Shown here one piece after another: positions 43,842 to 60,534 of a stretch of 64,000 nt of DNA (positions are counted from its first letter, which is position 1; each line of letters opens with the position of its first letter). The translations under genes and the position numbers were made by a program. Source of the stretch: an uncultured Roseovarius sp. (GTDB lineage: Bacteria > Pseudomonadota > Alphaproteobacteria > Rhodobacterales > Rhodobacteraceae); NCBI GenBank assembly GCA_951812895.1, contig OX638333.1, positions 3,018,001 to 3,082,000 on the forward strand. The letters are read 5' to 3'. Below the pieces are notes generated by a model that searched no databases, had not been told where the DNA came from, and saw nothing but the letters and a program-made list of their open reading frames with translations.

Positions 43842-44897
43842 TCACGCCCAGATGTCACCGATCGTAAATCCGGCTTGAAACGGATCAGTTGGATCCAGCA
43901 GGTAGTTTGACGTGCCGTATATCCAGGCCTGCCCCGAAATCGTAGGTATTATAGCCGGGTAGGGGCCGATCTGAGTGACCTCTTCAATTCGGCCGGTGAA
44001 TGTTGTTCCTAACGGACCTGCGTTCACGTAATCCTGCCCTACTTCCAACATCCCGCGCGCATGCATAACCGCCATTTTAGCACAAGTGCCGGTGCCACAG
44101 GGTGACCGGTCCAATGTTCCGGGCAGGGCATGGGGTCGTGCTGGGTTATACCCACCGGTCGAAACTGTGATTGCGCCACGCCCATGTGTGGCGGGGTCAA
44201 CGGGTGCGCCCCAAAGGTTGGTGATCGTAGGTCCGGTGATTGCCGGGTTTTCAGGATGTGCGACCGGTAGCTGTTCCTGAGCTGCCGCCAGAATGCGCTC
44301 TGACGCCTGCACAATTTCGGCACCATTCTCCGGCGCCAGATCGACCCCCAGTGCATCCGCATCAGCGAGCACGAAGAACATACCACCCCATGCAATATCG
44401 ACAGAAATCTTGCCCAATCCATCAACCTCAAGCGGCGCATCGAGATGCGTGGCAAAGGCGGGCACGTTGCGAAGCGTCACGCGGGTCACCTTGCCATCGT
44501 TGCAATCTGCGCGCACTTTGATCAGACCGGCGGGTGCTTCCAGCGTCAGCTCGGTTACCGGCTCCATCATTGGCAGAATACCGGTTTCCAACAGCACCGT
44601 AACCACGCACATCGCGTTGGATCCGGACATCGGCGGGAATTCTGTCTGTTCCATGATAATGAAACCAGCATCTGCATCCGGATCGCAGGGCGGCACCAGC
44701 AGATTGCAGCACAATGCAGGCTGGCCCCGCGGTTCGCGCAGCATCAACAGCCGAACATCATCGGCATGCTTCTGCATCCATTGCATTTTCTCGAATACTG
44801 AATGCCCCTGCAAGGGTGGTGCACCAGCGGTGATCACGCGACCCGGCTCGCCCTCGGCATGTGCTTCTACGGCGGTGATCATCCGGCTGGCACGCAT
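43842..44897 (-). CDS. Proline racemase superfamily enzyme (probable trans-3-hydroxyproline dehydratase type)
   Basis: A 351-residue member of the proline racemase superfamily. The first catalytic position, Cys in racemases and 4-hydroxyproline epimerases, is Ser91 (PPMSGSN). The second is Cys267 (DRSPCGTGTC). In this superfamily Ser/Cys or Thr/Cys pairs go with trans-3-hydroxy-L-proline dehydratase, and Cys/Cys pairs with racemases and epimerases. It is divergent from a GlxA-type AraC regulator and next to a Rieske operon, so it may act on a proline-derived or betaine-like metabolite. The substrate is inference. Confidence 0.83.
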   Translation of the reverse strand: MRASRMITAVEAHAEGEPGRVITAGAPPLQGHSVFEKMQWMQKHADDVRLLMLREPRGQPALCCNLLVPPCDPDADAGFIIMEQTEFPPMSGSNAMCVVTVLLETGILPMMEPVTELTLEAPAGLIKVRADCNDGKVTRVTLRNVPAFATHLDAPLEVDGLGKISVDIAWGGMFFVLADADALGVDLAPENGAEIVQASERILAAAQEQLPVAHPENPAITGPTITNLWGAPVDPATHGRGAITVSTGGYNPARPHALPGTLDRSPCGTGTCAKMAVMHARGMLEVGQDYVNAGPLGTTFTGRIEEVTQIGPYPAIIPTISGQAWIYGTSNYLLDPTDPFQAGFTIGDIWA

Positions 44898-44982
44898 AAC
44901 ATATCCTTCCTTGGTCGATGTGACCCTAATGTCGGTTTTTGAACGCGTCCAGCAGCTGGGATACTTGCGATGATCTTGCCTG

Positions 44983-44996
44983 AGCCAATCTTGGCT
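44983..44996. promoter_or_regulatory. Inverted repeat AGCCAA-TC-TTGGCT, candidate AraC-type operator
   Basis: A perfect 6-bp dyad lies between the proline-racemase-type gene and the divergent AraC regulator, 38 bases before the regulator start. The half-site TTGGCT recurs at 46057-46062 before the Rieske operon, followed by TGGCT at 46066-46070. The repeat and its placement suggest a binding site for the regulator encoded at 45034. Confidence 0.45.
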
Positions 44997-45033
44997 TTAA
45001 CATAGTGGCCAGAAAATTAACTGGATTCGCCAT

Positions 45034-46038
45034 ATGCTCCAAGGATCAACGCTATCAATCCAGATTATCGTGACGCCCAGCTTTAATCTTGCGGCGACGA
45101 TGGGTTTCATCGATCCGTTTCGTGCAGCGAATTACCTGGAAGGGCAGAACCTATTTGGTTGGTCACTTGTTTCAGAAGATGGCGGGGTCTGCCGGGCCAG
45201 CAACGGCGCAGAGATCAGTACTTTGGCTTTGCGCGACACGCGCAATGAACCAGCCGATTTTGTCATCGTATCGTCCAGTTGGACGCCGGAACTTTATGGA
45301 ACCGCGGCGATTCAATCAATATTGCACCATCGCGCGCGGCAGAATGTTACCCTTGGCTGCATCGACACAGGTGCTTTTGTCTTGGCGCGTGCGGGGCTGC
45401 TACAGGGGCGGCGTACCACCGTGCATTATGAGCATACGGATGCATTTCAGGAGATGTTTCCCGACGCACAGGTAACAGAGACTATTTGCGAATTCGACGG
45501 CTCCCGGATCAGTTGTTGCGGGGGCGTCGCAACCACAGATTTTGCACTGCACATCATCCGCAACACCCACGGCGCTGCAATTGCCAATGCCGCGGCTCGT
45601 TATGTGTTTCATGCGGATCTGCGTGATCCAAATACACCGCAGAATCCACCCGAAGCAGAGCCTTTGGGCAAAACCGTGCCTCAAGCCGTCCGGCGGGCCA
45701 TTGCAGCCATGGAGGCGCATCTCGAAGAACCGCTGCCAATCCCGGCAATTTGTGCCCAGGTTGAAATTTCGCAGCGTCAGCTCGACCGGCTGTTTTCCCG
45801 GCATCTGCATAAGACGCCCGCACTCTACTACCGTGATATCCGCCTGGACCGTGCGCGCGGGTTGGTAACTCAAACCAACATGAGCATGGCCGAAATCGCC
45901 GTTGCGTCAGGTTTTGCCAGTCAGGTGCATTTCAGCCGTGCCTATAAATCCCGGTTCGGATTGCCCCCCAGCCGGGATCGGATCGACGGGCGGGTGCCGT
46001 TCGAATTTCGCGCCTGGCCCATGCACCGGGTGGTTTGA
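45034..46038 (+). CDS. GlxA/GbdR-type AraC family transcriptional regulator
   Basis: A 334-residue regulator. The N-terminal DJ-1/PfpI-like domain (about residues 10-180) contains the LGCIDTGAFVLARAGLLQGRRTTVHYEH segment typical of the GlxA group. The C-terminal AraC helix-turn-helix pair (about 215-310) contains ICAQVEISQRQLDRLFSRH and MAEIAVASGFASQVHFSRAYKSRFG. Relatives include GbdR (glycine betaine), CdhR (carnitine) and ArgR. This points to a nitrogen compound or quaternary amine as effector. It sits between the two presumed target units. Confidence 0.88.
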   Translation: MLQGSTLSIQIIVTPSFNLAATMGFIDPFRAANYLEGQNLFGWSLVSEDGGVCRASNGAEISTLALRDTRNEPADFVIVSSSWTPELYGTAAIQSILHHRARQNVTLGCIDTGAFVLARAGLLQGRRTTVHYEHTDAFQEMFPDAQVTETICEFDGSRISCCGGVATTDFALHIIRNTHGAAIANAAARYVFHADLRDPNTPQNPPEAEPLGKTVPQAVRRAIAAMEAHLEEPLPIPAICAQVEISQRQLDRLFSRHLHKTPALYYRDIRLDRARGLVTQTNMSMAEIAVASGFASQVHFSRAYKSRFGLPPSRDRIDGRVPFEFRAWPMHRVV

Positions 46039-46181
46039 TTTGTGCAATGCCAAGGCTTGGCTGAATGGCTAAATTATACAAATTGGAGGCGAAAAATATC
46101 ATGATACCCTGCATCATTAGGGCGCATATTAGGATGTAGTCGAATCGGCGACGCAGCCACACCAACTCCAAGAGGTTCAGC

Positions 46182-47324
46182 ATGACGACCGTCCTCTCAC
46201 CAGATGCAGTTCGCGAAGTCTCGCAAGGGTATAGTGATGACCCATCGCGTTCATTGTCGCTTCGGGCGGATGCCTATACCCGTGCTGAATGGTTCGCAGC
46301 AGATCAGCAGGCTATTTTGGCCAAAAGCTGGCAATGGGTGTGTCATGTTGAAAAACTGCGCGATCCTGGCTCATATCTCACAGTAGAAATCGCCGGCCAC
46401 CCCATTGCAGTGGTGCGTGACCGCGAAGGGGTGCTGCGCGGGTTTTTTAACGTCTGCAAGCACCGAGCCCATGAACTGCTCAGCGGTGAGGGCAACACCA
46501 CCCGGATCATGTGCCCCTATCACGCCTGGGTGTACCGGCTGGATGGTCAACTGGTCCGCGCGCCAGAGACCGAACATTTATCAGATTTCAGCACGGGTGA
46601 GATTTGCCTCGATCAGGTGCAGGTCGAAGAATTTGCGGGCTTCATCTATGTAAATCTGGACCCGCATGCGCTGTCCCTGTCCCAACAATCCGGTGATCTT
46701 GAAACCGAGATCCGTCATTGGGCACCGGACATAGACCAGCTGACTTTTGGCCACCGGCTGACCTATGACATCAAGTCGAACTGGAAAAATGTCGTTGATA
46801 ACTTTCTGGAATGCTATCACTGCCCGACCGCGCACAAGGATTTCTGCGATCTGGTGGACATGGATACCTACAAGGTTGTCACCTACGATATTTATTCCTC
46901 GCATATGGCCGATGCGGGCTCCGGCGCCAACAGCGCCTATGATGTTTCAAATGCCACCGTACGTACCCACGCGGTCTGGTGGCTATGGCCCACTACCTGC
47001 CTGATGCGCTATCCGGGGCGGTCGTCGATGATTGTGCTTAACATCATTCCAATGGGACCGGACCGCACGCTGGAAACCTATGATTTCTTTCTGGAAACAC
47101 CTGAGCCTGACGCGATGGAATTGGATGCAATCCGTTATCTGGATGAGGTCCTGCAGGTCGAAGATATCGGGCTTGTCGAAAGCGTACAGCGCGGCATGAA
47201 CACACCCGCCTTCACCCAAGGGCGTATCGTCAATGATCCTACAGGTTCTGGTAAGTCAGAACATGCCGTGCATCACTTTCACGGACTTGTTCTTGATGCA
47301 TACCAGAAGGCCGCCGCCCCATGA
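46182..47324 (+). CDS. Rieske oxygenase of the carnitine/betaine monooxygenase type
   Basis: A 380-residue oxygenase. Rieske ligands are Cys92/His94 and Cys111/His114. The catalytic iron ligands are His213 and His218 in NFLECYHCPTAH. The bridging acid that is usually Asp is Glu210, as in carnitine monooxygenase CntA, whose active site also uses Glu. The LVESVQRGM segment near the end is shared with CntA. I infer oxidation of a quaternary amine. No reductase subunit is encoded nearby. It overlaps the sulfatase gene by 4 bases and heads the operon. Confidence 0.88.
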   Translation: MTTVLSPDAVREVSQGYSDDPSRSLSLRADAYTRAEWFAADQQAILAKSWQWVCHVEKLRDPGSYLTVEIAGHPIAVVRDREGVLRGFFNVCKHRAHELLSGEGNTTRIMCPYHAWVYRLDGQLVRAPETEHLSDFSTGEICLDQVQVEEFAGFIYVNLDPHALSLSQQSGDLETEIRHWAPDIDQLTFGHRLTYDIKSNWKNVVDNFLECYHCPTAHKDFCDLVDMDTYKVVTYDIYSSHMADAGSGANSAYDVSNATVRTHAVWWLWPTTCLMRYPGRSSMIVLNIIPMGPDRTLETYDFFLETPEPDAMELDAIRYLDEVLQVEDIGLVESVQRGMNTPAFTQGRIVNDPTGSGKSEHAVHHFHGLVLDAYQKAAAP

Positions 47325-48868
47325 CAAACCCAACGCGACGGCCCAACATTGTCGTCATCATGGCGGATCAGCTGGCGCCGCATTTTACCGGCGCATATGG
47401 GCACAAGGTGGCCAAAACCCCGCACATGGATGCGCTGGCCGCGCGCGGGATGCGGTTTGATGCGGCCTATTGCAACTCGCCATTATGTGCGCCGTCACGC
47501 TTTGCCTTTATGTCCGGCCAGCTGATCAGCCGGATCGCCGCCTATGACAATGCCTCGGAATTCCGCGCCTCAGTGCCCACCTTTGCCCATTACCTGCAAA
47601 TGCTGGGATACCGGACCTGCCTTTCAGGCAAGATGCATTTCGTCGGCCCGGACCAGAAACACGGGTTTCAGGACCGTGTGACCACAGATATTTACCCCGC
47701 CGATTTCGCATGGACCCCTGATTGGGAAGCACCGGATGAACGGATCGACAAGTGGTATCATAACATGCAAACGGTCAAGGAAAGCGGCGTCGCGGTCGCC
47801 ACCTTCCAAACCGATTATGATGACGAGGTCAGCTTTGCCGCGCGCCGGTGGCTGATTGACCGGGGCCGCGACCGCGCCGCCGGGGGTGAAAACCCGTTCT
47901 GCCTGGTGGCCTCATTCATCCACCCGCATGACCCCTATGTGGCCAAGCCCGAATGGTGGGATCTTTATTCTGATGAAGAGATCGAAATGCCCGCCTTTGT
48001 GCCCGCTTTGGCGGATCAGGACCCGTTTTCGCGTCGTTTGATGGATGGGATTGAGGCCAGTTATGTGCCCCTGACTGACGAGGAAATTCGCCGGGCCCGC
48101 CGCGCCTACCTCGCCAATGTCAGTTATTTTGACAGCAAGGTGGGTGAGGTGGTGCGCGCGTTGGAAGAAACCGGTGAGATCGTTAACACCATCGTCATCG
48201 TCACCGCTGATCACGGCGATATGCTGGGCGAACGCGGCTTATGGTACAAGATGAACTTCTTTGAACATTCGGCCCGAGTACCGCTGATCATGGCCGGGCC
48301 GGATATTGCGCAAGGCACGGCTCAAAACGCTTGCTCACTGGTCGACTTACTACCCACATTTCTTGAGATCGCAGGCAGCGACACCGGGATAGTGGGCGAG
48401 CCTGTGGATGGTCGTTCGCTTATGCCACTGGCCCGGGGCGATACAGACACGATGGATGAGGCGATTGGGGAATATTGTGCCGAGATGACACCTTTCCCGG
48501 TTCTGATGATCCGGCGCGGCACGCTGAAATACATCCACTGCGATGCTGATCCGCCGCAGCTCTATGATCTGGCACTAGACGCGCTGGAACAGGTCAACCT
48601 TGCCGATGACCCGACCTACGCCAGCCATGCCACGGCTTTTGCAACAGAGGTGGCGGCGCGCTGGGATTTTCCCACCCTGCGCGAAAACATCATCGCCACC
48701 CAAAAATCCCGCCGAGCGCTGCACGCAGCGATGGGCGCGGGGTCGGGCGAGCACTGGGATTACAACCCACCCCGCGATGCCTCGCAGGAATATGTGCGCA
48801 ATCACATGGACTGGACAGAGGCCGCCGCGCGTTACCGGTTTCCCCCGCTAAAGGAGACAGACACATGA
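47321..48868 (+). CDS. Choline-sulfatase-like type I sulfatase
   Basis: A 515-residue cytoplasmic sulfatase without a signal peptide. The catalytic Cys56, to be converted to formylglycine, lies in SPLCAPSR (C-x-P-x-R). Metal ligands include Asp16 and the TADHGD motif near 295. MHFVGPDQKHGF and TTDIYPADFAWTPDW are strong BetC (choline-sulfatase) marks, and the C-terminus DYNPPRDASQEYVRNHMDW matches the special choline-sulfatase C-terminal domain. Unlike most betC genes, it is not beside betA, betB or betI. It may cleave choline-O-sulfate or a related sulfate ester. Confidence 0.88.
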   Translation: MTNPTRRPNIVVIMADQLAPHFTGAYGHKVAKTPHMDALAARGMRFDAAYCNSPLCAPSRFAFMSGQLISRIAAYDNASEFRASVPTFAHYLQMLGYRTCLSGKMHFVGPDQKHGFQDRVTTDIYPADFAWTPDWEAPDERIDKWYHNMQTVKESGVAVATFQTDYDDEVSFAARRWLIDRGRDRAAGGENPFCLVASFIHPHDPYVAKPEWWDLYSDEEIEMPAFVPALADQDPFSRRLMDGIEASYVPLTDEEIRRARRAYLANVSYFDSKVGEVVRALEETGEIVNTIVIVTADHGDMLGERGLWYKMNFFEHSARVPLIMAGPDIAQGTAQNACSLVDLLPTFLEIAGSDTGIVGEPVDGRSLMPLARGDTDTMDEAIGEYCAEMTPFPVLMIRRGTLKYIHCDADPPQLYDLALDALEQVNLADDPTYASHATAFATEVAARWDFPTLRENIIATQKSRRALHAAMGAGSGEHWDYNPPRDASQEYVRNHMDWTEAAARYRFPPLKETDT

Positions 48869-49659
48869 TGTTAAAGGGGAAAACAGCCCTTGTTACCGGC
48901 GGTCGCGGCGGCATAGGGCGCGCTATCGTTGCACGGTTCCTGCGTGAAGGTGCAACCGTTTTCGCCGCCGATCTGACACCCGAAGGGTCCCTTGCAGCGC
49001 ATGATGAGGATGGCAGCCATTTCCTGAAACTCGACGTGACCCAAGAGGCCGACAGCATCGCGGCGATGTCTCAGGTTAGCCAAGAAGCAGGACAGCTCGA
49101 CATTTTGGTCAACGCCGCCGGGATCGAGATCGAAAAGACGATCGAGGATACCACGCTCGAAGAATGGAACCGCTCTTTTGCGGTCAATGTCACCGGAACC
49201 TTTCTGACATCCAAACATGCGCTTCCTTTGATGCGGGCAGCGGCGGGGCAAGGAGCGAGTGCCAGCATAATCAACTTCGGCTCCTATGACGGGTTCATCG
49301 CTGACCCCGGCCTTGCGGTCTATTGTGCCACCAAGGGTGCAGTGCATGCACTGACCCGTGCCATGGCCTGTGACCACGGGCCAGAGGGTATCCGGGTCAA
49401 CGCGATCTGCCCGGGCTATGTCGACACACCAATGTTGCAAAGCTTTTTCACCGGCGACGGTTCCGGCGCCGGGGGCAAAAGCATCGATGATTTGCAACAG
49501 GCCGTACGCGATGTGCACCCGATGCGGACCTATGGCACCCCCGACGATATTGCCAATCTGGTCAACTGGCTGGCCAGCGACGAGGCACGCTATGCCAGTG
49601 GGCAGCTTTGGGTGCTTGACGGTGGGTTGTCGGCCCAAGTCCAGCAGATGAAATTGTGA
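48865..49659 (+). CDS. Short-chain dehydrogenase (SDR 1 of the operon)
   Basis: A 264-residue SDR. The TGGRGGIG motif (11-18) binds NAD(P), and NAAG is near residue 86. The catalytic serine lies in NFGSYDGF, and the Tyr/Lys pair is Tyr153/Lys157 in YCATK. It ends with the YASGQLWVLDGG loop. The start overlaps the sulfatase stop, with AAGGAG at 48851-48856. A dehydrogenase acting on a hydroxylated or demethylated intermediate would fit the operon. The substrate is unknown. Confidence 0.9.
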   Translation: MMLKGKTALVTGGRGGIGRAIVARFLREGATVFAADLTPEGSLAAHDEDGSHFLKLDVTQEADSIAAMSQVSQEAGQLDILVNAAGIEIEKTIEDTTLEEWNRSFAVNVTGTFLTSKHALPLMRAAAGQGASASIINFGSYDGFIADPGLAVYCATKGAVHALTRAMACDHGPEGIRVNAICPGYVDTPMLQSFFTGDGSGAGGKSIDDLQQAVRDVHPMRTYGTPDDIANLVNWLASDEARYASGQLWVLDGGLSAQVQQMKL

Positions 49660-49667
49660 GGAAGGCC

Positions 49668-50072
49668 ATGAAACTGATCAAATCAGGACAAGCCCAAAGT
49701 GAACCGGCAACCGGCGCGCTTTACGTACAAGGCGCAATAGAATTTGCACTTCTTGCGGGAGCACCCGACACCAATCAGGTAGAGATTTATCAGGTCGATT
49801 TCGCAGCAGGTGCGCGCAACCGGGTGCATGTTCACAAAAAAGACCAGATCCTGATCGGCCTGAGCGGGCAGGGTATCGTTGCAGATGCTGCGGGCGAACA
49901 GGTGATGGGCCCCGGCGATACGGTGACCATCCCGTCGGGCCACCCGCACTGGCATGGCGCAAGCTCTGATCATGCCTTTTCCCATATCACGGTTGCTGTG
50001 CCCGGGGATGAAATCGAGATTGTTGATCAGGATGACCGAGGTGCCTGGGGCGCACTGCCTGATGGTGAATAA
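49668..50072 (+). CDS. Cupin domain protein
   Basis: A 134-residue single-domain cupin. Motif 1 reads VHVHKKDQILIGLSGQG, with His54 and His56, but Gln60 stands where the usual Glu ligand is. Motif 2 is PSGHPHWHGASS, offering His92, His94 and His96. The change of Glu to Gln may alter metal binding. It lies between two SDR genes, 8 bases after the first, and AGGAAGG precedes the ATG. Its role is unknown: an isomerase, lyase or sensor are all possible. Confidence 0.84.
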   Translation: MKLIKSGQAQSEPATGALYVQGAIEFALLAGAPDTNQVEIYQVDFAAGARNRVHVHKKDQILIGLSGQGIVADAAGEQVMGPGDTVTIPSGHPHWHGASSDHAFSHITVAVPGDEIEIVDQDDRGAWGALPDGE

Positions 50073-50095
50073 TCAAAACGGATGGAGGTTGCGTT

Positions 50096-50836
50096 ATGCG
50101 ACTGACCTGTAAAAAGGCGCTTGTCACCGGTGGCCGACAGGGGATCGGGCGCGGCATTGTTCAGGCATTTCTTGCGGAAGGTGCTAGCGTGGTGACCTGC
50201 GGCCGTGGTGCTGATCCCGGTGATCTTACCGAAGGGTGCGGATGGGTTCAGGCCGATGTCTCAGACGCGTCTAGCGTCGCAGCTTTGGTCGCCGAAACCG
50301 GCCCAATTGATATCCTTGTGAACAACGCAGGCGTGCAGGTTGAAAAGACTGTGCCCGACAGCACAGATGCCGACTGGGATGCTGTGATCGGTGCCAACTG
50401 CCGCGGCGTTTTTAACACCTGCCGTGCCTATATTCCATTGATGTCGCCCGGTGCGTCGATCATCAATATCGGCTCGATTTCCGGAACGCATGCGGATCCG
50501 TCCATGGCGCTCTACAATGCGTCAAAGGCTTTTGTGCATGGGCTGACACGCTCGATTGCAGTCGATCACGGCCCACGTGTTCGATGCAATGCCATCTGTC
50601 CGGGTTGGATTGAGACGGGGATGCTGGACGCAGGGTTTGACCTTGCTCAAAACCCCACCACCGCGCGCACTGATGCAGTTGCCCGCCACCCCGTGCGCCG
50701 GTTCGGACAGCCCGCCGATATCGCCGCAATGGCAGTCTGGCTCGCATCGGACGAGGCAGGTTTCGCCAGCGGGCAGCTCTTTACCATCGACGGCGGTATG
50801 ACCGCTGCCTCTCCTTTGCAACCGGGGTTGTTCTGA
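50096..50836 (+). CDS. Short-chain dehydrogenase (SDR 2 of the operon)
   Basis: A 246-residue SDR. TGGRQGIG (11-18) binds the nucleotide, NNAG is near residue 81, and the catalytic Tyr140/Lys144 pair is in YNASK. ICPGWIETGM and FASGQLFTIDGG close the fold. It resembles SDR 1 of the same operon in several segments, so the two may act in sequence or on similar substrates. It overlaps the following gene by one base. Confidence 0.9.
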   Translation: MRLTCKKALVTGGRQGIGRGIVQAFLAEGASVVTCGRGADPGDLTEGCGWVQADVSDASSVAALVAETGPIDILVNNAGVQVEKTVPDSTDADWDAVIGANCRGVFNTCRAYIPLMSPGASIINIGSISGTHADPSMALYNASKAFVHGLTRSIAVDHGPRVRCNAICPGWIETGMLDAGFDLAQNPTTARTDAVARHPVRRFGQPADIAAMAVWLASDEAGFASGQLFTIDGGMTAASPLQPGLF

Positions 50837-51765
50837 TGTCAGAGTTTGCGCATACAGCCTGTCTTGGTGCGGGCGTCATCGGGGCCAGCTGGACCGCATT
50901 ATTCCTCGCGTCTGGCCGCTCTGTCGCGGTGTATGATCCGCAGGACGGTGCTGCTGATTTTGTGCGGCGCTATATCGAAACCGCCTGGCCTGCTCTGGTT
51001 GGATTGGGGTTGGCGGACAAGGGAACACCCGACGCGGTGACATTTCACCAATCTGCGGCCCGGGCTGTCGAAGGCGCTGCCTTTGTACAGGAAAGCGTGC
51101 CAGAGCGTCTGGAGATCAAACATCCGCTTTATGCTGACGTTGAACCTGCACTTGAACCAGATGCGGTGGTTGCCTCATCGGCGTCGGGCCTCACCCTCAG
51201 CGAATTGCAGCAAGGATGGCGCGATCCTGCCCGCCTTGTCCTTGGCCACCCGTTTAATCCGCCCCATCTCATTCCGCTGGTCGAGGTGATGGGCAATGAT
51301 CGAACAGCCCCGGATGCGGTGGAATTGGCCGAGAAGTTCTACAAGGCCGTTGGCAAGATCACCATTCGTGTCCACCGCGAGGTGCCGGGCCATGTCGCCA
51401 ACCGGCTTCAGGCCGCAGTCTGGCGCGAAGCGATCCATCTGGTACTGGAAGGCGTGGCCAGTGTCGGCGACGTGGACAAGGCGATGTGGGCGGGTCCGGG
51501 TTTGCGTTGGGCGGCAATGGGACCAACACAGCTCTTTCACCTTGGTGCGGGAGAGGGCGGGATTGCAGAGTTCTGCGACCGGTACGCAGACAGCTTCAAC
51601 CGCTGGTGGGATGACCTCGGCGACCCGCGCCTGACACCAGAGGTCGCCGCGACACTCAGTGAAGGTATCAACCAAGAAACGGGCGAAACGCCCACGGCTG
51701 AATTATCTGCACAACGCGACGCACTGATCGTGACCATGCAGCGCGCGATAGGGGATATTCGATAG
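50836..51765 (+). CDS. 3-hydroxyacyl dehydrogenase family protein (carnitine dehydrogenase/L-gulonate dehydrogenase-like)
   Basis: A 309-residue NAD-dependent 3-hydroxy acid dehydrogenase. GAGVIGAS (11-18) is the NAD fold, SSASGL is near 117, and GHPFNPPHLIPLVEV (about 139-153) contains the active-site His. This combination is shared by L-carnitine 3-dehydrogenase, L-gulonate 3-dehydrogenase and 3-hydroxybutyryl-CoA dehydrogenase. In a quaternary-amine context carnitine-type beta-hydroxy acid oxidation is the leading guess. It is the last gene of the operon, with one-base overlap to SDR 2. Confidence 0.88.
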   Translation: MSEFAHTACLGAGVIGASWTALFLASGRSVAVYDPQDGAADFVRRYIETAWPALVGLGLADKGTPDAVTFHQSAARAVEGAAFVQESVPERLEIKHPLYADVEPALEPDAVVASSASGLTLSELQQGWRDPARLVLGHPFNPPHLIPLVEVMGNDRTAPDAVELAEKFYKAVGKITIRVHREVPGHVANRLQAAVWREAIHLVLEGVASVGDVDKAMWAGPGLRWAAMGPTQLFHLGAGEGGIAEFCDRYADSFNRWWDDLGDPRLTPEVAATLSEGINQETGETPTAELSAQRDALIVTMQRAIGDIR

Positions 51766-52156: not shown

Positions 52157-52645
52157 TTACTGGATGTGCGGCACAACGAGCGTTGGAACTGTCGAGCGCC
52201 GCAGCACTCTTTTGACCACTGTTCCGATAAAGGTGTGTCCGGTTCCGTGCTCATGCGTTCCCATAACGATCAGGCCGCAATTTAACTCTTTGGCGCGCTG
52301 CAAAATCGCTTCTGCGGGATGCCCGTCAACCAGTTCCACGGATACAACTGATGCGTAGGCTTCTTTTTCGTCACCTTTCAGCGATTTTACAAAATCCTGC
52401 TGGTTGGATTTGAGCATTTCTTTCACCGAAGCATGCCGGTCCTGGATCGCTTTTTTGCGCGAAGCGTCGTCCTGAATGAACATCCGCATCGTTACAATCG
52501 CATCCTGGGTCAGCGGCTCTGTGACGTGCAGAACATGCACTTGGGCGTTGTGGGCCTGCGCCATGCTCATAGCATGGCGCAGTGCGTTGTTTGCGTTGTC
52601 CGACAGGTCCGTTGCGAACAGGATATCGTTGATAACTGGTAGCAT
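52157..52645 (-). CDS. Universal stress protein, TRAP-linked
   Basis: A 162-residue UspA-fold protein. INDILFATDLSDNANNALRHA opens the fold, and the ATP-binding signature GTHEHGTGHTFIGTVVKRVLRRSTVPTLVV (G-2x-G-9x-G-S/T type) is near the end. The ATG at 52645 is preceded by AAAGGAAAG. A longer frame overlapping the permease stop has no such site. In Halomonas the TRAP transporter TeaABC has a downstream UspA-like TeaD that regulates uptake, so a regulatory role for the adjoining TRAP system is plausible. Confidence 0.86.
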   Translation of the reverse strand: MLPVINDILFATDLSDNANNALRHAMSMAQAHNAQVHVLHVTEPLTQDAIVTMRMFIQDDASRKKAIQDRHASVKEMLKSNQQDFVKSLKGDEKEAYASVVSVELVDGHPAEAILQRAKELNCGLIVMGTHEHGTGHTFIGTVVKRVLRRSTVPTLVVPHIQ

Positions 52646-52667
52646 TTTCTTTCCTTTCGGTTCCCGA

Positions 52668-54008
52668 TCAATAGCCAAAGAATCGCGGTAGCCAGAGCGA
52701 TATCTCGGGGAAGAACGCGATTATGAAGATGGCAATCGTGTTGATGAACGCAAACGGAAGAGCTGCCACAGATATTCGTTCTATCGATATGTTCGATATA
52801 CCCGAGGCAATGAACAGGTTCTCCCCCAACGGTGGCGTCTGAAACCCAATTCCCAGTGTGCAAACCATCACCACACCAAAGTGGATCGGGTCGATACCAA
52901 CGCTATAGGCCACTGGCAGCATCACGGGTACCAGGATCAGGATGGTTGCCAATGTCTCCATGAACATGCCTACAAACAGCAGGAAGAAGATCACCAGCGT
53001 CCAAATGATATAGATGTTGTCAGTAACCGACAGCATGCCATCCGCGATAATCGCCGGGATCTGGTTTTCCACCAGCAGGCGGCCAAACACCGTTGCGGTG
53101 AACATGATCAGCAGAACCCGACCTGTCAGCCACGTGGTTGTCTCCAGCGAAGTAAACAACTTCTCCCAGCTCAGCTCGCGATAGATAAAGGCGCCGACAA
53201 CCAGCGTGTAGAAGATGGCGACAATTGCGGCCTCGGTAGGTGTAAAGAAACCTGAATAGATCCCACCCAGAATGACCACAGGTGCCATCAGCGCCCAGAA
53301 ACCACGATACAACTCACACCAGATACCGCGGGCCGACCAGCCTTCGGTCGTGCCTTTATAACCGTTCTTCTTGGCAAGAATATAGTTCATGATCAAAAGG
53401 CTGCCCGCGATCAGGAACGCAGGCATAAAGCCGGCAATAAACAATTTCGGGATCGAAACCGTTTGGAATGTACCATGTTCGGCTACAGCCTCAGGTGGGG
53501 CTGGCATGCCAAGTGCGGCAATCCCAAAGATGATCAGAGGGATCGACGGTGGAATAACAATACCCAGACCACCGGAAGAGGCGGTAATCGCCGACGAAAA
53601 GTCCCGCCCATAGCCGCGTTGGATCATGGCTGGGATCATCAGCATACCAACAGCTGCAGTCGTTGCTGGCCCAGAGCCGGAAATCGCGCCAAAGAACAGG
53701 CAGGCAAAGACCGTGGCTGCAGACATCCCGCCGGTGAAAGGCCCGGCAAAGCTTTCTGCCACATTGATCAGCCTTCGGGACAGGCCCGAGGCTTCCATTA
53801 AAGCCCCTGCAAGAATGAAGGCAGGCAGCGCCATCAGCGGAAAGGACCCCACCGAGGTAAACGCGATCTGCACAAATTTGATCGGATTCTCATCCAGATA
53901 CAGAAAGGTGAGAAGTGTCGATACACCTAGCGCTACCGTGATCGGTGCGCCGATAAACAGTAGCAATAAAAAGCCACCGAACAGCAGTAGAATAAGTTCG
54001 CTTCCCAT
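52668..54008 (-). CDS. TRAP transporter large permease (DctM family)
   Basis: A 446-residue membrane protein with about twelve helices. It begins MGSELILLLFGGFLLLLFIGAPITVALG, and GAISGSGPATTAAVGMLMIPAMIQRGYG (about residues 110-137) is the DctM signature. It carries the transport path of a sodium-coupled tripartite importer for organic acids or osmolytes. It directly follows the small permease gene (one-base overlap). The substrate is unknown. Confidence 0.93.
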   Translation of the reverse strand: MGSELILLLFGGFLLLLFIGAPITVALGVSTLLTFLYLDENPIKFVQIAFTSVGSFPLMALPAFILAGALMEASGLSRRLINVAESFAGPFTGGMSAATVFACLFFGAISGSGPATTAAVGMLMIPAMIQRGYGRDFSSAITASSGGLGIVIPPSIPLIIFGIAALGMPAPPEAVAEHGTFQTVSIPKLFIAGFMPAFLIAGSLLIMNYILAKKNGYKGTTEGWSARGIWCELYRGFWALMAPVVILGGIYSGFFTPTEAAIVAIFYTLVVGAFIYRELSWEKLFTSLETTTWLTGRVLLIMFTATVFGRLLVENQIPAIIADGMLSVTDNIYIIWTLVIFFLLFVGMFMETLATILILVPVMLPVAYSVGIDPIHFGVVMVCTLGIGFQTPPLGENLFIASGISNISIERISVAALPFAFINTIAIFIIAFFPEISLWLPRFFGY

Positions 54009-54571
54009 TATTTGTCCCCCTGATCGGCAGCTGATGTGTCAGCTCCGCCGATCTCTGCTCTGACTTCTTCAAGATCGATTGAGTCTGGATCACGCAGATC
54101 TTCGTTCAGAATGATTTTCTTGTAGTTCACCTGAATGATCCGGATGGTCATCAGGGTGAAAGCGATGGGCAAAACGATGTAGACCCAGCTGAGGTGAAAG
54201 CCCAAGGTCTGCGATGACTGAAACCGGTTCATTTTGTTGAAGATGAAGTCGATCGCCAGATACACAAAGTAGACATTGAAGAAGATCCAGAAAAGATCTG
54301 CAAAGGCTTCGATGAATTTGATCGCGCGGGGCGGGAGAAACTTGAACTGAAAAGTTACCCTGTTATGTGCGCCCATTTTCGCGGCATAGCTCGCACCGAA
54401 AAAGACGAACCAGACGAACATGTAGATGGATAGTTCTTCAACCCAGGAAAATGAGAAGTTGAAGAGTGTTCGCACGACGACTTGCAAGAACAGAAGGCAC
54501 ACAAATATCGCCAGTAATGTGCGACATATGTAGCTTTCTATATTGTTAACTATTCCCCAGAATTTTGTCAT
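54008..54571 (-). CDS. TRAP transporter small permease (DctQ family)
   Basis: A 187-residue protein with four helices and a charged C-terminal tail (about 155-187). The stretch RTLFNFSFSWVEELSIYMFVWFVFFGASYA is typical of DctQ. It supports the large permease. A 63-base gap after the binding-protein gene holds a stem-loop (54592-54618). The last base overlaps the large permease start. Confidence 0.9.
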   Translation of the reverse strand: MTKFWGIVNNIESYICRTLLAIFVCLLFLQVVVRTLFNFSFSWVEELSIYMFVWFVFFGASYAAKMGAHNRVTFQFKFLPPRAIKFIEAFADLFWIFFNVYFVYLAIDFIFNKMNRFQSSQTLGFHLSWVYIVLPIAFTLMTIRIIQVNYKKIILNEDLRDPDSIDLEEVRAEIGGADTSAADQGDK

Positions 54572-54591
54572 TTGTCCCTCGCTGTCAGAAT

Positions 54592-54618
54592 AGGAAGCGC
54601 CAATGATAGGCGCTTCCT
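54592..54618 (-). terminator. Stem-loop between TRAP binding-protein and small-permease genes
   Basis: AGGAAGCGCC (54592-54601) pairs perfectly with GGCGCTTCCT (54609-54618) around a 7-base loop. It follows the binding-protein stop but has no strong U-tract on the minus strand. It may be an mRNA stability element or a partial attenuator. Confidence 0.6.
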
Positions 54619-54634
54619 TACGTTTTAGAGAGTC

Positions 54635-55651
54635 TTATTCAGAGACCGGATCACGACCAATGGCAGCAAGCACAGCGTTCAGCTTTTCAACGCCACCGAT
54701 GCTTTCGTAGAACTTCGGCCACACGGCAGCAGTTGCCAGATCGATGAATTCCTGCTCGTTGTTTTCCGGATCATCGATTTGCATTCCTTGATCGAGAAGG
54801 ATTTGCTTAATCTCCGCTTCCTTGTCGCGCAGGAACTGAGCCGAAGCTGCAGTGGCTGCTTTACCTGCTTCAAGAATGATTTCCTGATCTGCAGATGACA
54901 GGTCCTGGAATACTGATTCCGAGATGATCAGAGGTTCAATCGAAAAGATGTAGCGAATGTTGGTCACATACTTCTGAACTTCGTAGAACTTCATCGCGTT
55001 GATCGTGGTGTAGGGGTTGTCCTGACCATCAACAACTTTGGTTTGCAGACCGGCAAAAGTTTCCGACCATGCCATTGGTGTCGGGCTGATGCCCCATGAC
55101 TTGTAGGTGTCGATCATGATCTCGTTCTTGGGAACGCGAATGACCAGACCCTGCAGATCAGCAACCGATTTCACCGGCTTTTTGGAGTTCGTCAGGCGAC
55201 GGAACCCGGTATAGGTCCATGCGATGATGCGGACGCCCGCGTCATTGATGGTGTTTTCAGTCAGTTCCTGTCCGATTGGACCCTGTGTGAGGGTTTCTGC
55301 ATCTTCGAGGCTCAGGATCACGTAAGGCAGGGTAAAGACACCAACCGAAGGTGAAAACGGCGTGACGTTATTGATCGCCAGCAGTGACATATCCAGCGTA
55401 CCGATGGCGGCATCGTTGACTGTATCCTGCTCTGAACCAAGCTGGCCGTTCAGGAACAATGTCGCGGTGTGTTTACCACCTGACAGCTCCTCAAGAGCGC
55501 TTTTGAATCCAAGGCCAGTTGCTTCCTGGCTGGAACCACCGCTGTCGCCGACAGCAATTTTAAAGTTTTTGGCGATTGCCGGTGACGCCAATGTAACGGC
55601 AACCAATGAAACCGTTGCAGCAGCAGTCGTTAGTTTTTTTAAGACATTCAT
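54635..55651 (-). CDS. TRAP transporter substrate-binding protein (DctP family)
   Basis: A 338-residue periplasmic protein. The signal peptide (residues about 1-24) ends in LASPAIA. Mature motifs include DMSLLAINNVTPFSPSVGVFTLPYV and VADLQGLVIRVPKNEIMIDTYKSWGISPTPMAWSETFAGLQTKVVDGQDNP, with the conserved Arg (IRVP) that binds a carboxylate. GGAGAG precedes the ATG at 55651. A divergent LysR gene follows upstream (55807), suggesting regulated uptake. Confidence 0.93.
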   Translation of the reverse strand: MNVLKKLTTAAATVSLVAVTLASPAIAKNFKIAVGDSGGSSQEATGLGFKSALEELSGGKHTATLFLNGQLGSEQDTVNDAAIGTLDMSLLAINNVTPFSPSVGVFTLPYVILSLEDAETLTQGPIGQELTENTINDAGVRIIAWTYTGFRRLTNSKKPVKSVADLQGLVIRVPKNEIMIDTYKSWGISPTPMAWSETFAGLQTKVVDGQDNPYTTINAMKFYEVQKYVTNIRYIFSIEPLIISESVFQDLSSADQEIILEAGKAATAASAQFLRDKEAEIKQILLDQGMQIDDPENNEQEFIDLATAAVWPKFYESIGGVEKLNAVLAAIGRDPVSE

Positions 55652-55806
55652 GAAGTTCTCTCCGTCTGTTGGGCAATTGCAACCAGCAAGCTCCAGAACC
55701 AGTAGCGTTCTCAGATTGCTGGCCAATGGGGCGTGTATAGGTTGCAAACAGCGTGCAGTTAATACAAATTAAGTGACGTAAAGTTTGATAAATAGGAAAC
55801 ATGTGA

Positions 55807-56754
55807 ATGGCCCGGAAATCCGCAATCACCCGCGTCGCCGATGTCGACATTCGACTGTTGGAAATTTTTCGAACCGTAGTTGCATGTGGTGGGTTCACCG
55901 CCGCTGAATTCGAGCTGAACATCGGCCGTTCAACGATAAGCAAGCATATTTCGGATCTTGAAACGCGGTTGAAGCTCAAACTTTGTCACCGCGGCCCTGC
56001 TGGATTCTCACTTACATCCGATGGCGAACACGTGCTCAGCGCCGCGGCGGAGCTCTTTACATCAATCGATAAATTTCAGGAACAGCTTGATGAAGCTCAC
56101 GCAGAGTTGACCGGCAAACTCAGGATTGCTTTCCACGATCACTCCTCATCGAATCCTGAAGCGCGCATATCTGAAGCAATTCGCTTGTTCCGCGATTCGG
56201 CACCGGGTGTGACATTGGATATTTCGGTCGAACCGCCAAACACCATCGAAGAAGGCGTGATAAACGGGCAGTTCAACCTTGGCATTGTTCCGCTTCACCG
56301 GCAGTCTCCGATGCTGAATTACGCCAATTTATACCCCGAACATATGCGGCTCTATTGTGGTCAGCAGCATGAACTCTACCAAAACATGCCGGCGCAGCTA
56401 GAACTGAGTGAACTTCGAAAATATTCTTATGCGGGGTTGAGCTTCAATTCCCCCAATATGTCGATCCATCAACAGCTGAAGCTTAGAAAATCCGCATTTG
56501 TACAGAACGAAGTTGCACTTACCCTGCTTATTCTCTCCGGGCGATATCTGGGGTTTCTACCAACCCACATCGCCCAACTCTTCATCGATACAGGTTTGAT
56601 CTGTGAGGTGAACAATGAAGACACGCGCTTTACCTCCACGATGTCGGCAATCGTAAGGAAAAGCGCCTCACAGGGGCGTCGGCTGAATATCTTTCTTGAA
56701 TGTCTTTGCAGAGCACACGGCACCCAAACGAACAATGCAAATCTGATTGCCTAA
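55807..56754 (+). CDS. LysR family transcriptional regulator
   Basis: A 315-residue LysR-type regulator. The helix-turn-helix lies at about residues 13-66 (LLEIFRTVVACGGFTAAEFELNIGRSTISKHISDLETRLKLKLC region). The effector domain has IAFHDHSSSNPEARI and the typical alternating strand order. It is divergent from the TRAP binding-protein gene with a 155-base gap and is the probable regulator of that operon. The effector is unknown. Confidence 0.88.
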   Translation: MARKSAITRVADVDIRLLEIFRTVVACGGFTAAEFELNIGRSTISKHISDLETRLKLKLCHRGPAGFSLTSDGEHVLSAAAELFTSIDKFQEQLDEAHAELTGKLRIAFHDHSSSNPEARISEAIRLFRDSAPGVTLDISVEPPNTIEEGVINGQFNLGIVPLHRQSPMLNYANLYPEHMRLYCGQQHELYQNMPAQLELSELRKYSYAGLSFNSPNMSIHQQLKLRKSAFVQNEVALTLLILSGRYLGFLPTHIAQLFIDTGLICEVNNEDTRFTSTMSAIVRKSASQGRRLNIFLECLCRAHGTQTNNANLIA

Positions 56755-56809
56755 CTCTGTTAATTTCCGCGGTGGCCGGCGTCACTTGCAGGTCGACGTA
56801 CCTTCGCAG

Positions 56810-57370
56810 TCAGGCGGCAAATGCACCAGCATACGGTTCAGGCATGTCAAACTCCTGCAACACCCGCGCCCGGCCATCCTTGGACATCTTGCGGGCAGTC
56901 TTCATCACAATCCGTTCCATTTTTTCGGGGCTCTGTTTGTCTGAGAATGGCGCAAAATACCACTTCAGAAACACGAAACAGATCACATCTTCCAGCGCCT
57001 GTACCTCCGGGTCACGCTTGATCCCCTCCTTTCGTAACATCCGGCCCGTCGCCGCAATATCAGCCTCTCCATACCCGGCATCCGCCATGATATCCGCTAC
57101 GCGATCCGCATGATGACGTGCCAAAGACTGACGCCAGTTCAGATACCCTTCGCGCCCCTCTGGAAAATCCGTGCGTTTCAATACCCACCGTTCGATGTGC
57201 TGACCCCGTGCGGCAATCTGCAACGGTTCGGATGCATCAGGAAACAGTCGCGCCAGCTCTGCGCTCATCCGATCGCCATATAACCGGCTCGCCGGCTGCC
57301 CGTCTTCGAGGTTCGGATCGGCCGCATTCGCCGCATCAATCGCTGCCAGTGCTGTTTCCAGTGGTGTCAT
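56810..57370 (-). CDS. DUF4202 family protein
   Basis: A 186-residue protein. The segment QIAARGQHIERWVLKRTDFPEGREGYLNWRQSLARHHADRVADIM (about residues 50-95) is the most distinctive part and matches the DUF4202 family, whose function is not known. The start at 57370 (MTPLETALAAIDAANAADP) is chosen over a longer frame. It lies 12 bases after glpK on the same strand and may be cotranscribed with it. Confidence 0.8.
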   Translation of the reverse strand: MTPLETALAAIDAANAADPNLEDGQPASRLYGDRMSAELARLFPDASEPLQIAARGQHIERWVLKRTDFPEGREGYLNWRQSLARHHADRVADIMADAGYGEADIAATGRMLRKEGIKRDPEVQALEDVICFVFLKWYFAPFSDKQSPEKMERIVMKTARKMSKDGRARVLQEFDMPEPYAGAFAA

Positions 57371-57381
57371 GTTCTGCCCTT

Positions 57382-58869
57382 TCAAACGGACATTGCCGCA
57401 GTTACTGCGCGTTTCCACGCGGTATATTTTTGATCCCGCATTGTTTCATCCATCTTAGGTTCAAACCGGCGATCCAGCGCCCATGTTTCGGCGAACCCTG
57501 CCATGTCCGGGTAAACCCCTGCCTGCATCCCGGCCAACCATGCCGCGCCCATTGCGGTTGTTTCCAGAACCTGTGGCCGGTCCACCGGCGCACCAATGAT
57601 GTCCGCGAGGAACTGCATTGTCCAATCCGATGCGCTCATCCCGCCATCCACGCGCAGCACCTGCTGCGCCGAACCATCACTCCAATCCGTGGTCATTGCT
57701 TCCAGCAGATCACGGGTTTGAAGCCCGACGCTTTCCAATGCCGCACGGGACAGCTCTGCCGCGCCTGATCCACGCGTCAGACCAAATACAGCCCCGCGGC
57801 ATTCAGCATTCCAATAGGGCGCGCCCAGTCCGGTAAATGCAGGTACAAGGATCAAATCCTGCGCTGGGTCTGCTGTTTCGGCCAGTACTTGGGTCTCAGG
57901 CGCGGAATCGATCACCTTGATCCCATCCCGCAACCATTGAACCACGGCGCCCGCAACAAAGATGGACCCCTCCAGCGCATAGTTGGGCTGGCCGTTCAAT
58001 TGATAGGCAATGGTGGTCAGCAACCGGTTTTGCGACCGAACCGGAGTTTCGCCGGTGTTCAGCAGGGCAAAACACCCCGTGCCATAGGTTGATTTCATCA
58101 TGCCGGGACTAAAACACGCCTGCCCAACAGTTGCCGCCTGTTGATCACCCGCAACCCCCAGGATCGGGACCGCCCCACCCAGCAGTTCAGCGTCAGTTTC
58201 GCCAAACGCCGCCGCACAGTCGCGGACCTCCGGCAACATCGCCATCGGCACATTCAACAGCGCGCAAATCTCCGAGCACCAGGCCCCTTTGTGAATGTCA
58301 TATAGCAAAGTGCGAGAGGCATTTGTCGCGTCGGTGGCATGCACACGCCCCCCGGTCAGTTTCCAGATCAGGTAACAATCAACTGTTCCGAACAACAATT
58401 CCCCATTTTCGGCCCTTGCGCGCGCACCTTCGGTGTTGTCCAGAATCCAGGAGGTTTTGGTTCCTGAAAAATAGGGATCCAGCAACAGCCCGGTCCGGTC
58501 TGTAATCATCTCCTCGTGGCCCGCTTTTTTCAAAGCATTGCACATCTCCGCGGTCCGCCGGTCCTGCCAGACAATGGCGCGGTGCACCGGCTCTCCGGTG
58601 GCTTTGTCCCAAACGACCGTTGTCTCGCGCTGGTTGGTGATGCCAATGCCTGCGATATCTGCGGCTGTGATCCCTGCCTGATCCATCGCGTCCCGGCAGG
58701 TTCTGAGCGTCGTTTCCCACAGATCATCCGGCTCATGCTCCACCCAGCCAGAGGCTGGAAAATGCTGCGCAAATTCCTCTTGCGCCGTGGCTTTTAGGCG
58801 CAGATTGGCGTCAAAGATGATGGCCCTGCTCGACGTGGTGCCCTGATCAATCGCTAGGATAAATGTCAT
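57382..58869 (-). CDS. glpK: Glycerol kinase
   Basis: A 495-residue FGGY-family kinase converting glycerol to glycerol 3-phosphate. The N-terminal [17 protein letters not shown] is the first phosphate loop; [20 protein letters not shown] (about 76-95) and [17 protein letters not shown] (about 264-280) are hallmark segments, and [22 protein letters not shown] (about 404-425) closes the fold. It lies 18 bases after glpD in one minus-strand operon. Confidence 0.96.
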
Positions 58870-58887
58870 CTTTGCCCTTCCTGTCAT

Positions 58888-60462: not shown

Positions 60463-60534
60463 GCCGCCCTGATCCATCCTCGAAACCGACCTGATTCTGC
60501 ATCAGGCGATTTACTCTTGAATTTTCCGAAAGAA

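Follow-up and report, generated by a model that had tools for sequence, protein, structure and literature searches.

An apparently mobile, modular operon joining a CntA-like Rieske oxygenase to a BetC-like sulfatase in Roseovarius, probably for quaternary-ammonium catabolism

Which compound is degraded where a Rieske oxygenase, a sulfatase and a series of dehydrogenases are encoded back to back behind a GlxA/AraC-type regulator? The question is raised by a locus of an uncultured Roseovarius sp. (contig OX638333.1; genome G000, 4.54 Mb, single contig), and "the window" below is the whole 64,000-nucleotide stretch that was analysed (G000:C1:3018001-3082000). We report that these genes constitute a genuine catabolic operon, conserved, built of modules and apparently mobile, a new variant made of known enzyme kinds, and we describe its gene set, its conservation, its modules and the residue changes in its oxygenase and its sulfatase. 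We hold it to be rather probable that this apparently mobile and presumably regulated operon degrades a hydroxylated quaternary-ammonium compound other than choline-O-sulfate or carnitine.

Gene content and conservation of the operon

The genes of the locus, with window positions and with the families found by scanning, are as follows.

45034-46038, plus strand: regulator of the GlxA/AraC type, GbdR-like, presumed activator of the operon (DJ-1/PfpI and HTH_18)
46182-47324, plus strand: Rieske oxygenase, CntA-like, with a remodelled substrate pocket (Rieske and Ring_hydroxyl_A)
47321-48868, plus strand: BetC-like sulfatase, "BetC2" (Sulfatase and Choline_sulf_C)
48865-49659, plus strand: SDR1, a short-chain dehydrogenase (adh_short_C2)
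49656-50072, plus strand: small cupin, a rare accessory gene (Cupin_2)
50096-50836, plus strand: SDR2, a second short-chain dehydrogenase (adh_short_C2)
50836-51765, plus strand: 3-hydroxyacid dehydrogenase of the carnitine dehydrogenase / lambda-crystallin kind (3HCDH_N and 3HCDH)
43842-44897, minus strand: divergent gene of the proline-racemase superfamily (PF05544, family scan)

"BetC2" is a label coined in this analysis for a separate clade of BetC-like sulfatases. From the Rieske gene to the last gene the intergenic gaps are -4, -4, -4, +23 and -1 bases, and so close a packing makes a single transcript of these six genes likely; 143 bases separate the end of the regulator gene from the Rieske gene, and both are read in the same direction. 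An earlier sequence-only reading of this DNA had placed and classified all eight genes in the same way. It had also stated that the set holds no standard betA, betB or cntB; this stands for the operon genes, among which family and profile scans found none of the three (not every gene of the window was scanned for them), and a betI-betC-betA cluster sits elsewhere in the genome.

That reading had called for a comparison of gene neighbourhoods. We took the best 80 of 327 relatives retrieved by sulfatase peptide patterns, some of them cut by contig ends, and counted a partner gene as present at an identity of at least 45% over 40% of the query. The genes stay together as a conserved unit amid variable flanks: SDR1 was found in 68 of the 80 loci, the Rieske oxygenase and SDR2 in 67 each, the dehydrogenase in 60 and the regulator in 59. 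Two further genes, for a beta-keto acid cleavage enzyme (BKACE) and an aldehyde dehydrogenase (ALDH), were present in 50 and 46 loci, respectively. Among the 67 Rieske-bearing loci the structural genes are co-oriented without exception and the Rieske gene precedes the sulfatase gene in 62 and follows it in five; both BKACE and ALDH accompany it in 41, BKACE alone in eight, ALDH alone in four and neither in 14. The regulator (n = 59) lies upstream and parallel, as in the window, in 38 cases, downstream and reversed in 17, upstream and reversed in three, and downstream in the same direction in one.

In the common gene order, from which two Roseovarius plasmids deviate, BKACE and ALDH are placed between SDR1 and SDR2. 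In the window the cupin alone fills the place where most relatives have BKACE and/or ALDH, and therefore the window carries a reduced form of the operon. The cupin gene occurs in three of the 80 loci, all three Rieske-bearing and all three with BKACE and ALDH as well.

The 208 flanking open reading frames fall into 169 clusters, and since the flanks are not conserved the operon looks like a unit that moves. Moreover, the operon, or at least its Rieske gene, is plasmid-borne in 10 records at an identity of at least 71%. Its carriers are marine bacteria and some relatives from soil; laboratory roseobacters that have it include Ruegeria sp. THAF33 and Roseovarius sp. THAF9. Sulfatase-bearing loci beyond the roseobacters were seen in the rhizobial group, in Labrenzia/Roseibium and in marine metagenome bins of the Granulosicoccaceae. 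A sample across the phylum (398 genomes, E <= 1e-90) gave matches in G000 and G021 only, and the wider spread, to rhizobia and Pseudomonas, consequently rests on plasmid records and individually named loci. In G021 decayed remains of the entire operon are left (L143:8331-15164), with a stop in the Rieske gene and fragments of the sulfatase, SDR1/BKACE/ALDH and regulator genes. The plasmid of Rhizobium sp. CB3171 (L154) carries two Rieske copies, each 81% identical to that of the window, approximately 8 kb apart on opposite strands and with an ATP-binding cassette (ABC) transporter between them.

The Rieske oxygenase and the BetC2 sulfatase

The best solved relative of the Rieske oxygenase is the carnitine monooxygenase CntA (6y8j; 251 bits over residues 9-373), the next other enzyme reaching 114 bits. 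In an alignment of 66 operon copies (67 loci carry the gene; one copy fell below the length filter) position 203, in CntA numbering, is F in 66/66, and E205, C206, C209, Y225 and Y295 are likewise kept in all; the metal ligands are retained except for L at 208 in one copy. The operon enzymes thereby carry the marks of the CntA-type group Va, namely an aromatic residue at 203, the E205 bridge and the Cys206/Cys209 pair. As far as the consulted parts of the sources go, Y203 of CntA binds the ammonium group by cation-pi interaction and a Y203F mutant is active (PMC7948474), Y225 and Y295 contact carnitine (residue roles of the CntA type: PMC7948474, PMC10952381), and the proline-betaine group of Rieske enzymes has Asn at 203. 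The remainder of the carnitine pocket of CntA, F258, N270, Y315 and F319, is not retained, the operon copies having H258, M270, L315 (65/66; I in one) and L319.

A Rieske-based sample of 292 genomes of the order contained an orthologue with at least 77% identity in 19 genomes, while the next group lies at 43-45% and others at about 35%; G107 and G181 hold Rieske fragments only (71% and 63%). In the sister group at 43-45%, two of three members pair with a gene of the GcvT/aminomethyltransferase family (L144:9376-11719 and L145:8605-10943), a hint of folate-coupled demethylation, and two of three (L144, L146) have nearby an ATPase similar to that of the OpuA/ProU/choline-type transporter described below.

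The sulfatase passes the choline sulfatase model TIGR03417 (701 bits, cut-off 433). Its catalytic residues (Cys54, the formylglycine position, R58, K102, H201 and K309) and its ammonium contacts (Y123, W129, H145 and E386) are present in the window and in 80/80 loci, and W143 and Y144 are also kept in all 80; the roles of Y123, W129, W143, Y144, H145 and E386, with the ammonium clamp W129/H145 and E386 among them, are those given in the portions seen of PMC5870055 and PMC9063841. The tunnel and gate residues of characterised BetC, G128, W142 and L499, are not retained. Instead we found A128 in 80/80, W499 in 80/80 and K142 in 79/80 loci (R in one), a uniformity that is overstated because two of the retrieval peptide patterns span the K142 and W499 positions.

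For a comparison set not picked by these residues we turned to a sample of the class. BetC-family matches (E <= 1e-100) occurred in 32 of its 289 genomes, and of the 42 family places listed outside G000 we aligned 29. The G/W/L set at 128/142/499 is found in SmBetC, in the BetC of the own genome and in 12/29 sampled members; the A/K/W set is found in 2/29 (L126, L128) and other sets in 15/29. K142 alone also occurs in L136, and L134 and L137 align poorly at the tunnel positions. In the tree, the smallest clade holding the window and the 80 loci, which includes L128, has a support of 0.57, and the next node up, which adds L126, has 0.994. The L126 and L128 sulfatases lie outside the operon context (loci L138 and L139), and hence the tunnel changes are a trait of the BetC2 clade and are not confined to the operon. 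BetC2 presumably hydrolyses a quaternary-ammonium sulfate ester and so releases an alcohol, and its entry-tunnel lysine, K142, may meet a carboxylate.

Where the sulfatase stands without operon partners, its contexts are mixed, e.g. a branched-chain ABC transporter (L069), a member of the arginase family (L046), an iron-dependent alcohol dehydrogenase (L058), or a class-III aminotransferase with another BKACE (L065). Among the neighbours scanned at these 12 loci nothing was common to all and no bet gene exceeded its cut-off; the contexts being heterogeneous, they were dropped as a source of substrate clues. Nor did L138 and L139 have a shared neighbour or a bet gene over cut-off (an ALDH in L138 is betaine-aldehyde-dehydrogenase-like, 488 vs 669). 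In L138:3454-10518 BetC2 lies beside this ALDH, an LLM-class (luciferase-like) oxidoreductase, an enol-lactonase-like hydrolase and an acetolactate-synthase/sulfoacetaldehyde-acetyltransferase-like enzyme, a setting that may give a lead to what BetC2 acts on.

Variable modules and companion enzymes

The sulfatase is a variable part of the operon. Of the 19 Rieske-operon genomes, 15 have it intact, one (G021) has it in fragments and three (G037, G162 and G153) lack it. On the plasmid records it was found in 5/10, all from Rhodobacterales, and it was absent from the stretches read of five others (Rhizobium, two Shinella, Mesorhizobium and Pseudomonas). Because the core thus exists in relatives without it, the sulfatase is probably an entry module, and the core itself is probably devoted to quaternary-ammonium catabolism, with the sulfatase serving mainly marine versions. 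The sulfatase-free operons rule it out as an essential part, and the sulfate ester proposed in the sequence-only reading is consequently probable as a substrate but not a defining one. BKACE, at an identity of at least 74%, is present in 13/19 of these genomes. The barest operon consists of the regulator, Rieske, SDR1 and SDR2 genes (L142) and lacks ALDH, BKACE and the dehydrogenase; L140 has this form plus the dehydrogenase, and L141 has both the dehydrogenase and BKACE.

An ABC transporter of the OpuA/ProU/choline type is divergent from the regulator in 6/10 plasmid records as well as in L057 and L140, and in the Rhizobium plasmid L154 it adjoins the second Rieske copy. The five plasmid copies without a sulfatase have a glycine-betaine/choline-type ABC transporter in four cases and a reductase in four. 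An AndAa/HcaD-like ferredoxin reductase, below the cut-offs of those models, lies in or just behind the operon in L149, L150, L156, L017 and L021 (the L150 protein was scanned and the other four were assigned by similarity), and a VanB-type reductase with a Fer2 domain lies just behind the operon on the plasmid of Pseudomonas sp. MPC6 (L148). In the window's operon no reductase was found, and with it no CntB-type partner. The operon thus shares with CntA/CntB (YeaW/YeaX) the full-length oxygenase likeness with its conserved residues and, in the Pseudomonas copy, the VanB-type reductase. It differs in the four pocket residues and in that its oxygenase shares an operon with a sulfatase and SDRs and, in most relatives, also with BKACE. 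The regulator has GbdR (NF052371) as its best NCBIfam model, at 241.6 bits and well below the cut-off of 480. In addition, the Pseudomonas copy encodes a choline-binding protein over cut-off and a thioesterase. The latter resembles the thioesterase portion of carnitine 3-dehydrogenase (112 bits), a likeness that suggests a betaine-like acyl-coenzyme A (acyl-CoA).

Downstream of the operon (52157-60477) lie genes for a universal stress protein, a TRAP (tripartite ATP-independent periplasmic) transporter, a LysR regulator, glpK and glpD, which are ordinary and without a link to it. The TRAP transporter (52668-55747; DctM, DctP and a probable DctQ that matched no family) was rejected as the transporter of the operon, none of its three genes being found in the 80 loci at >30% identity over 40% of the query.

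With respect to the later enzymes, the last gene had been called carnitine-dehydrogenase-like. The family assignment is right and lambda-crystallin is its best solved relative; carnitine dehydrogenase activity itself has become less probable, with 263.9 bits against a cut-off of 414 for L-carnitine dehydrogenase (NF005471) and with the kind of BKACE encoded in the operon of a relative. The one operon BKACE that was scanned (L011) scores 507 bits (cut-off 430) as a 3,5-dioxohexanoate:acetyl-CoA acetone transferase and resembles BKACE15 of Paracoccus (370 bits), whose confirmed substrates are, in the part of PMC11961710 available, uncharged beta-keto acids. The operon ALDH that was scanned (L009) exceeds the cut-off of the aminobutyraldehyde-dehydrogenase subfamily (635 vs 615 bits) but stays below the ABALDH equivalog cut-off (573 vs 909). 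Structure matches of the SDRs gave no substrate information.

Other clusters for related compounds are present in the operon genomes. The own genome has betI-betC-betA at 3.217 Mb and, at 1.37 Mb, a carnitine 3-dehydrogenase over cut-off next to a BKACE that is about one third identical to the operon BKACE; a carnitine 3-dehydrogenase over cut-off is present in 18/19 operon genomes. The claim of a route that matches neither the choline-betaine nor the carnitine pathway is borne out by these separate clusters, by the changed sulfatase tunnel and by the dehydrogenase score. A further own-genome cluster at 2.757 Mb (L105, G000:C1:2749000-2768900) encodes an ATP-grasp CoA ligase, an acyl-CoA dehydrogenase, a BKACE, and enzymes similar to carnitine dehydrogenase and crotonobetainyl-CoA hydratase, together with a luciferase-like monooxygenase and an ALDH, beside a GlxA regulator. 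With all named models below their cut-offs, it perhaps represents a CoA-dependent gamma-butyrobetaine route; in G074 the operon adjoins a cluster of this kind (L147, recognised by similarity and gene size).

A proposed route and its rivals

A hydroxylated quaternary-ammonium compound as the substrate, the class of compound that the sequence-only reading had put forward, is favoured here because the Rieske oxygenase is CntA-like, with its aromatic residue at 203 throughout, the BetC clamp is kept, a betaine/choline-type transporter accompanies the operon in relatives and GbdR is the best regulator model; the separate choline and carnitine clusters support it further. In the route that we propose, the compound would be imported, in some relatives, by the OpuA/ProU/choline-type ABC transporter, and in most marine versions BetC2 would remove its esterified sulfate by hydrolysis and leave a free alcohol. 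The Rieske oxygenase would then oxygenate the carbon chain, with its aromatic residue holding the ammonium group and with electrons from a reductase encoded elsewhere in the genome or, in some relatives, in the operon. SDR1, SDR2 and the 3-hydroxyacid dehydrogenase would oxidise hydroxyls and the aminobutyraldehyde-dehydrogenase-type enzyme an aldehyde, and BKACE would finally use acetyl-CoA to split a beta-keto acid. Paralogues encoded elsewhere would need to take over the ALDH and BKACE reactions in the genome of the window.

Several observations weigh against this proposal. The window lacks BKACE, ALDH, a reductase and an adjacent transporter of the OpuA/ProU/choline type; the nearest BKACE and ALDH of the own genome are only 36-37% identical to those of the operon, and its nearest transporter binding protein only 43%. 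Of the 80 sulfatase loci only L057 has the transporter next to it, and the sulfatase occurs without operon partners in 12/80. F203 is also found in two more distant own-genome Rieske enzymes (L108 A and B) without the Cys pair, so that an aromatic 203 is supporting evidence and by itself not proof. Finally, the BKACE kind, as judged by sequence comparison, argues against a quaternary beta-keto acid at the cleavage step. Either the ammonium group would be gone before BKACE acts, through C-N cleavage by the Rieske enzyme, or this kind of BKACE would also accept a betaine; the Pseudomonas thioesterase favours the latter and the family name the former.

C-N cleavage is accordingly the alternative that we take most seriously, though we give it a good deal less credence than the proposal above. 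The Rieske enzyme would act like CntA, its closest solved relative, and release trimethylamine, and the SDRs, dehydrogenase, ALDH and BKACE would process an uncharged chain; the scanned BKACE is of the uncharged-substrate kind and far from that of the carnitine cluster, whereas the betaine-like acyl-CoA suggested by the thioesterase speaks against it. Somewhat unlikely, in our judgement, is a C4-type route from a trimethylammonio-alcohol sulfate ester through the alcohol and the aldehyde to a gamma-butyrobetaine-like acid, a carnitine-like acid, the 3-keto acid and betaine-CoA, with the Rieske enzyme hydroxylating in place of gamma-butyrobetaine dioxygenase (BBOX) and BKACE yielding betaine-CoA. 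It would fit the subfamily score of the L009 ALDH, the retained carnitine contacts Y225 and Y295, and a SAR11 island that, in what was seen of PMC12421898, pairs choline dehydrogenase (CHDH), ALDH, carnitine dehydrogenase (CDH), BBOX and BKACE. The kind of BKACE, the equivalog score of the same ALDH, the changed hydrophobic pocket of the Rieske enzyme and the minimal form L142, which has no ALDH, BKACE or dehydrogenase, all count against it.

That the operon is a redundant one for choline-O-sulfate or carnitine appears improbable. The sulfatase does pass the NCBI choline-sulfatase cut-off and the dehydrogenase does resemble L-carnitine dehydrogenase, but the latter scores below the carnitine cut-off, the betI-betC-betA and carnitine clusters are separate, tunnel residues are changed across the whole clade, and no sulfatase was seen in what was read of the rhizobial and Pseudomonas copies. 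The canonical carnitine route in particular is weakened by the cut-offs and the BKACE kind. Hydroxyproline-betaine catabolism involving the proline-racemase gene, which shares its intergenic region with the regulator, is very improbable: the Rieske enzyme has F203 and not the Asn of the proline-betaine group, and the gene is near the operon in one of the 80 loci (L056, about 7 kb from the Rieske gene), its orthologues (71-81%) in three other operon genomes lying about 1.6 Mb from the operon in G074 and on a different contig in G130 and G145. The same distribution rules it out as an operon partner, and its earlier inclusion in the system has to be given up: it is a chance neighbour. Its product scores 374.5 bits against trans-3-hydroxy-L-proline dehydratase (NF047722, cut-off 550) and has Cys at the second site (PCGTG) and Ser at the first (MSGSNA), which we take to be the position of the usual catalytic Cys in this superfamily.

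Compared with known systems, the operon shares with betICBA of Sinorhizobium and Ruegeria a BetC-family sulfatase with a quaternary-ammonium clamp, and differs in its tunnel residues, in its GlxA regulator and in having no BetA, BetB or BetI. Aerobic carnitine degradation by carnitine dehydrogenase, BKACE and betainyl-CoA thioesterase uses the same dehydrogenase and BKACE families, and a related thioesterase is present in the Pseudomonas copy; in the operon, however, the dehydrogenase is below cut-off, BKACE is of another kind, and Rieske, SDR, ALDH and sulfatase genes are added. The SAR11 island has corresponding roles (alcohol/aldehyde oxidation, hydroxylation, dehydrogenation and beta-keto cleavage); its hydroxylase is the 2-oxoglutarate enzyme BBOX and not a Rieske enzyme, and the gene list seen in PMC12421898 includes no sulfatase.

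No description of the operon was found in the literature searched on choline sulfatase, Rieske enzymes, carnitine and BKACE, in which subscription journals are thinly covered. We regard it as possible, if somewhat short of an even chance, that the operon encodes a pathway absent from that literature, by which a sulfated quaternary-ammonium metabolite from algae or animals of the sea would be degraded, with a sulfatase clade for a new substrate, a Rieske enzyme hydroxylating or cleaving a new betaine, and a beta-keto exit, carried on roseobacter plasmids and chromosomes and, without the sulfatase, in rhizobia and Pseudomonas. Since plasmid records name the operon genes 'choline-sulfatase', 'ring-hydroxylating oxygenase' and '3-keto-5-aminohexanoate cleavage protein', pathway predictions made from them may be wrong. 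The defined gene set, with natural variants that have or lack each module, offers a handle for finding an overlooked sulfated osmolyte.

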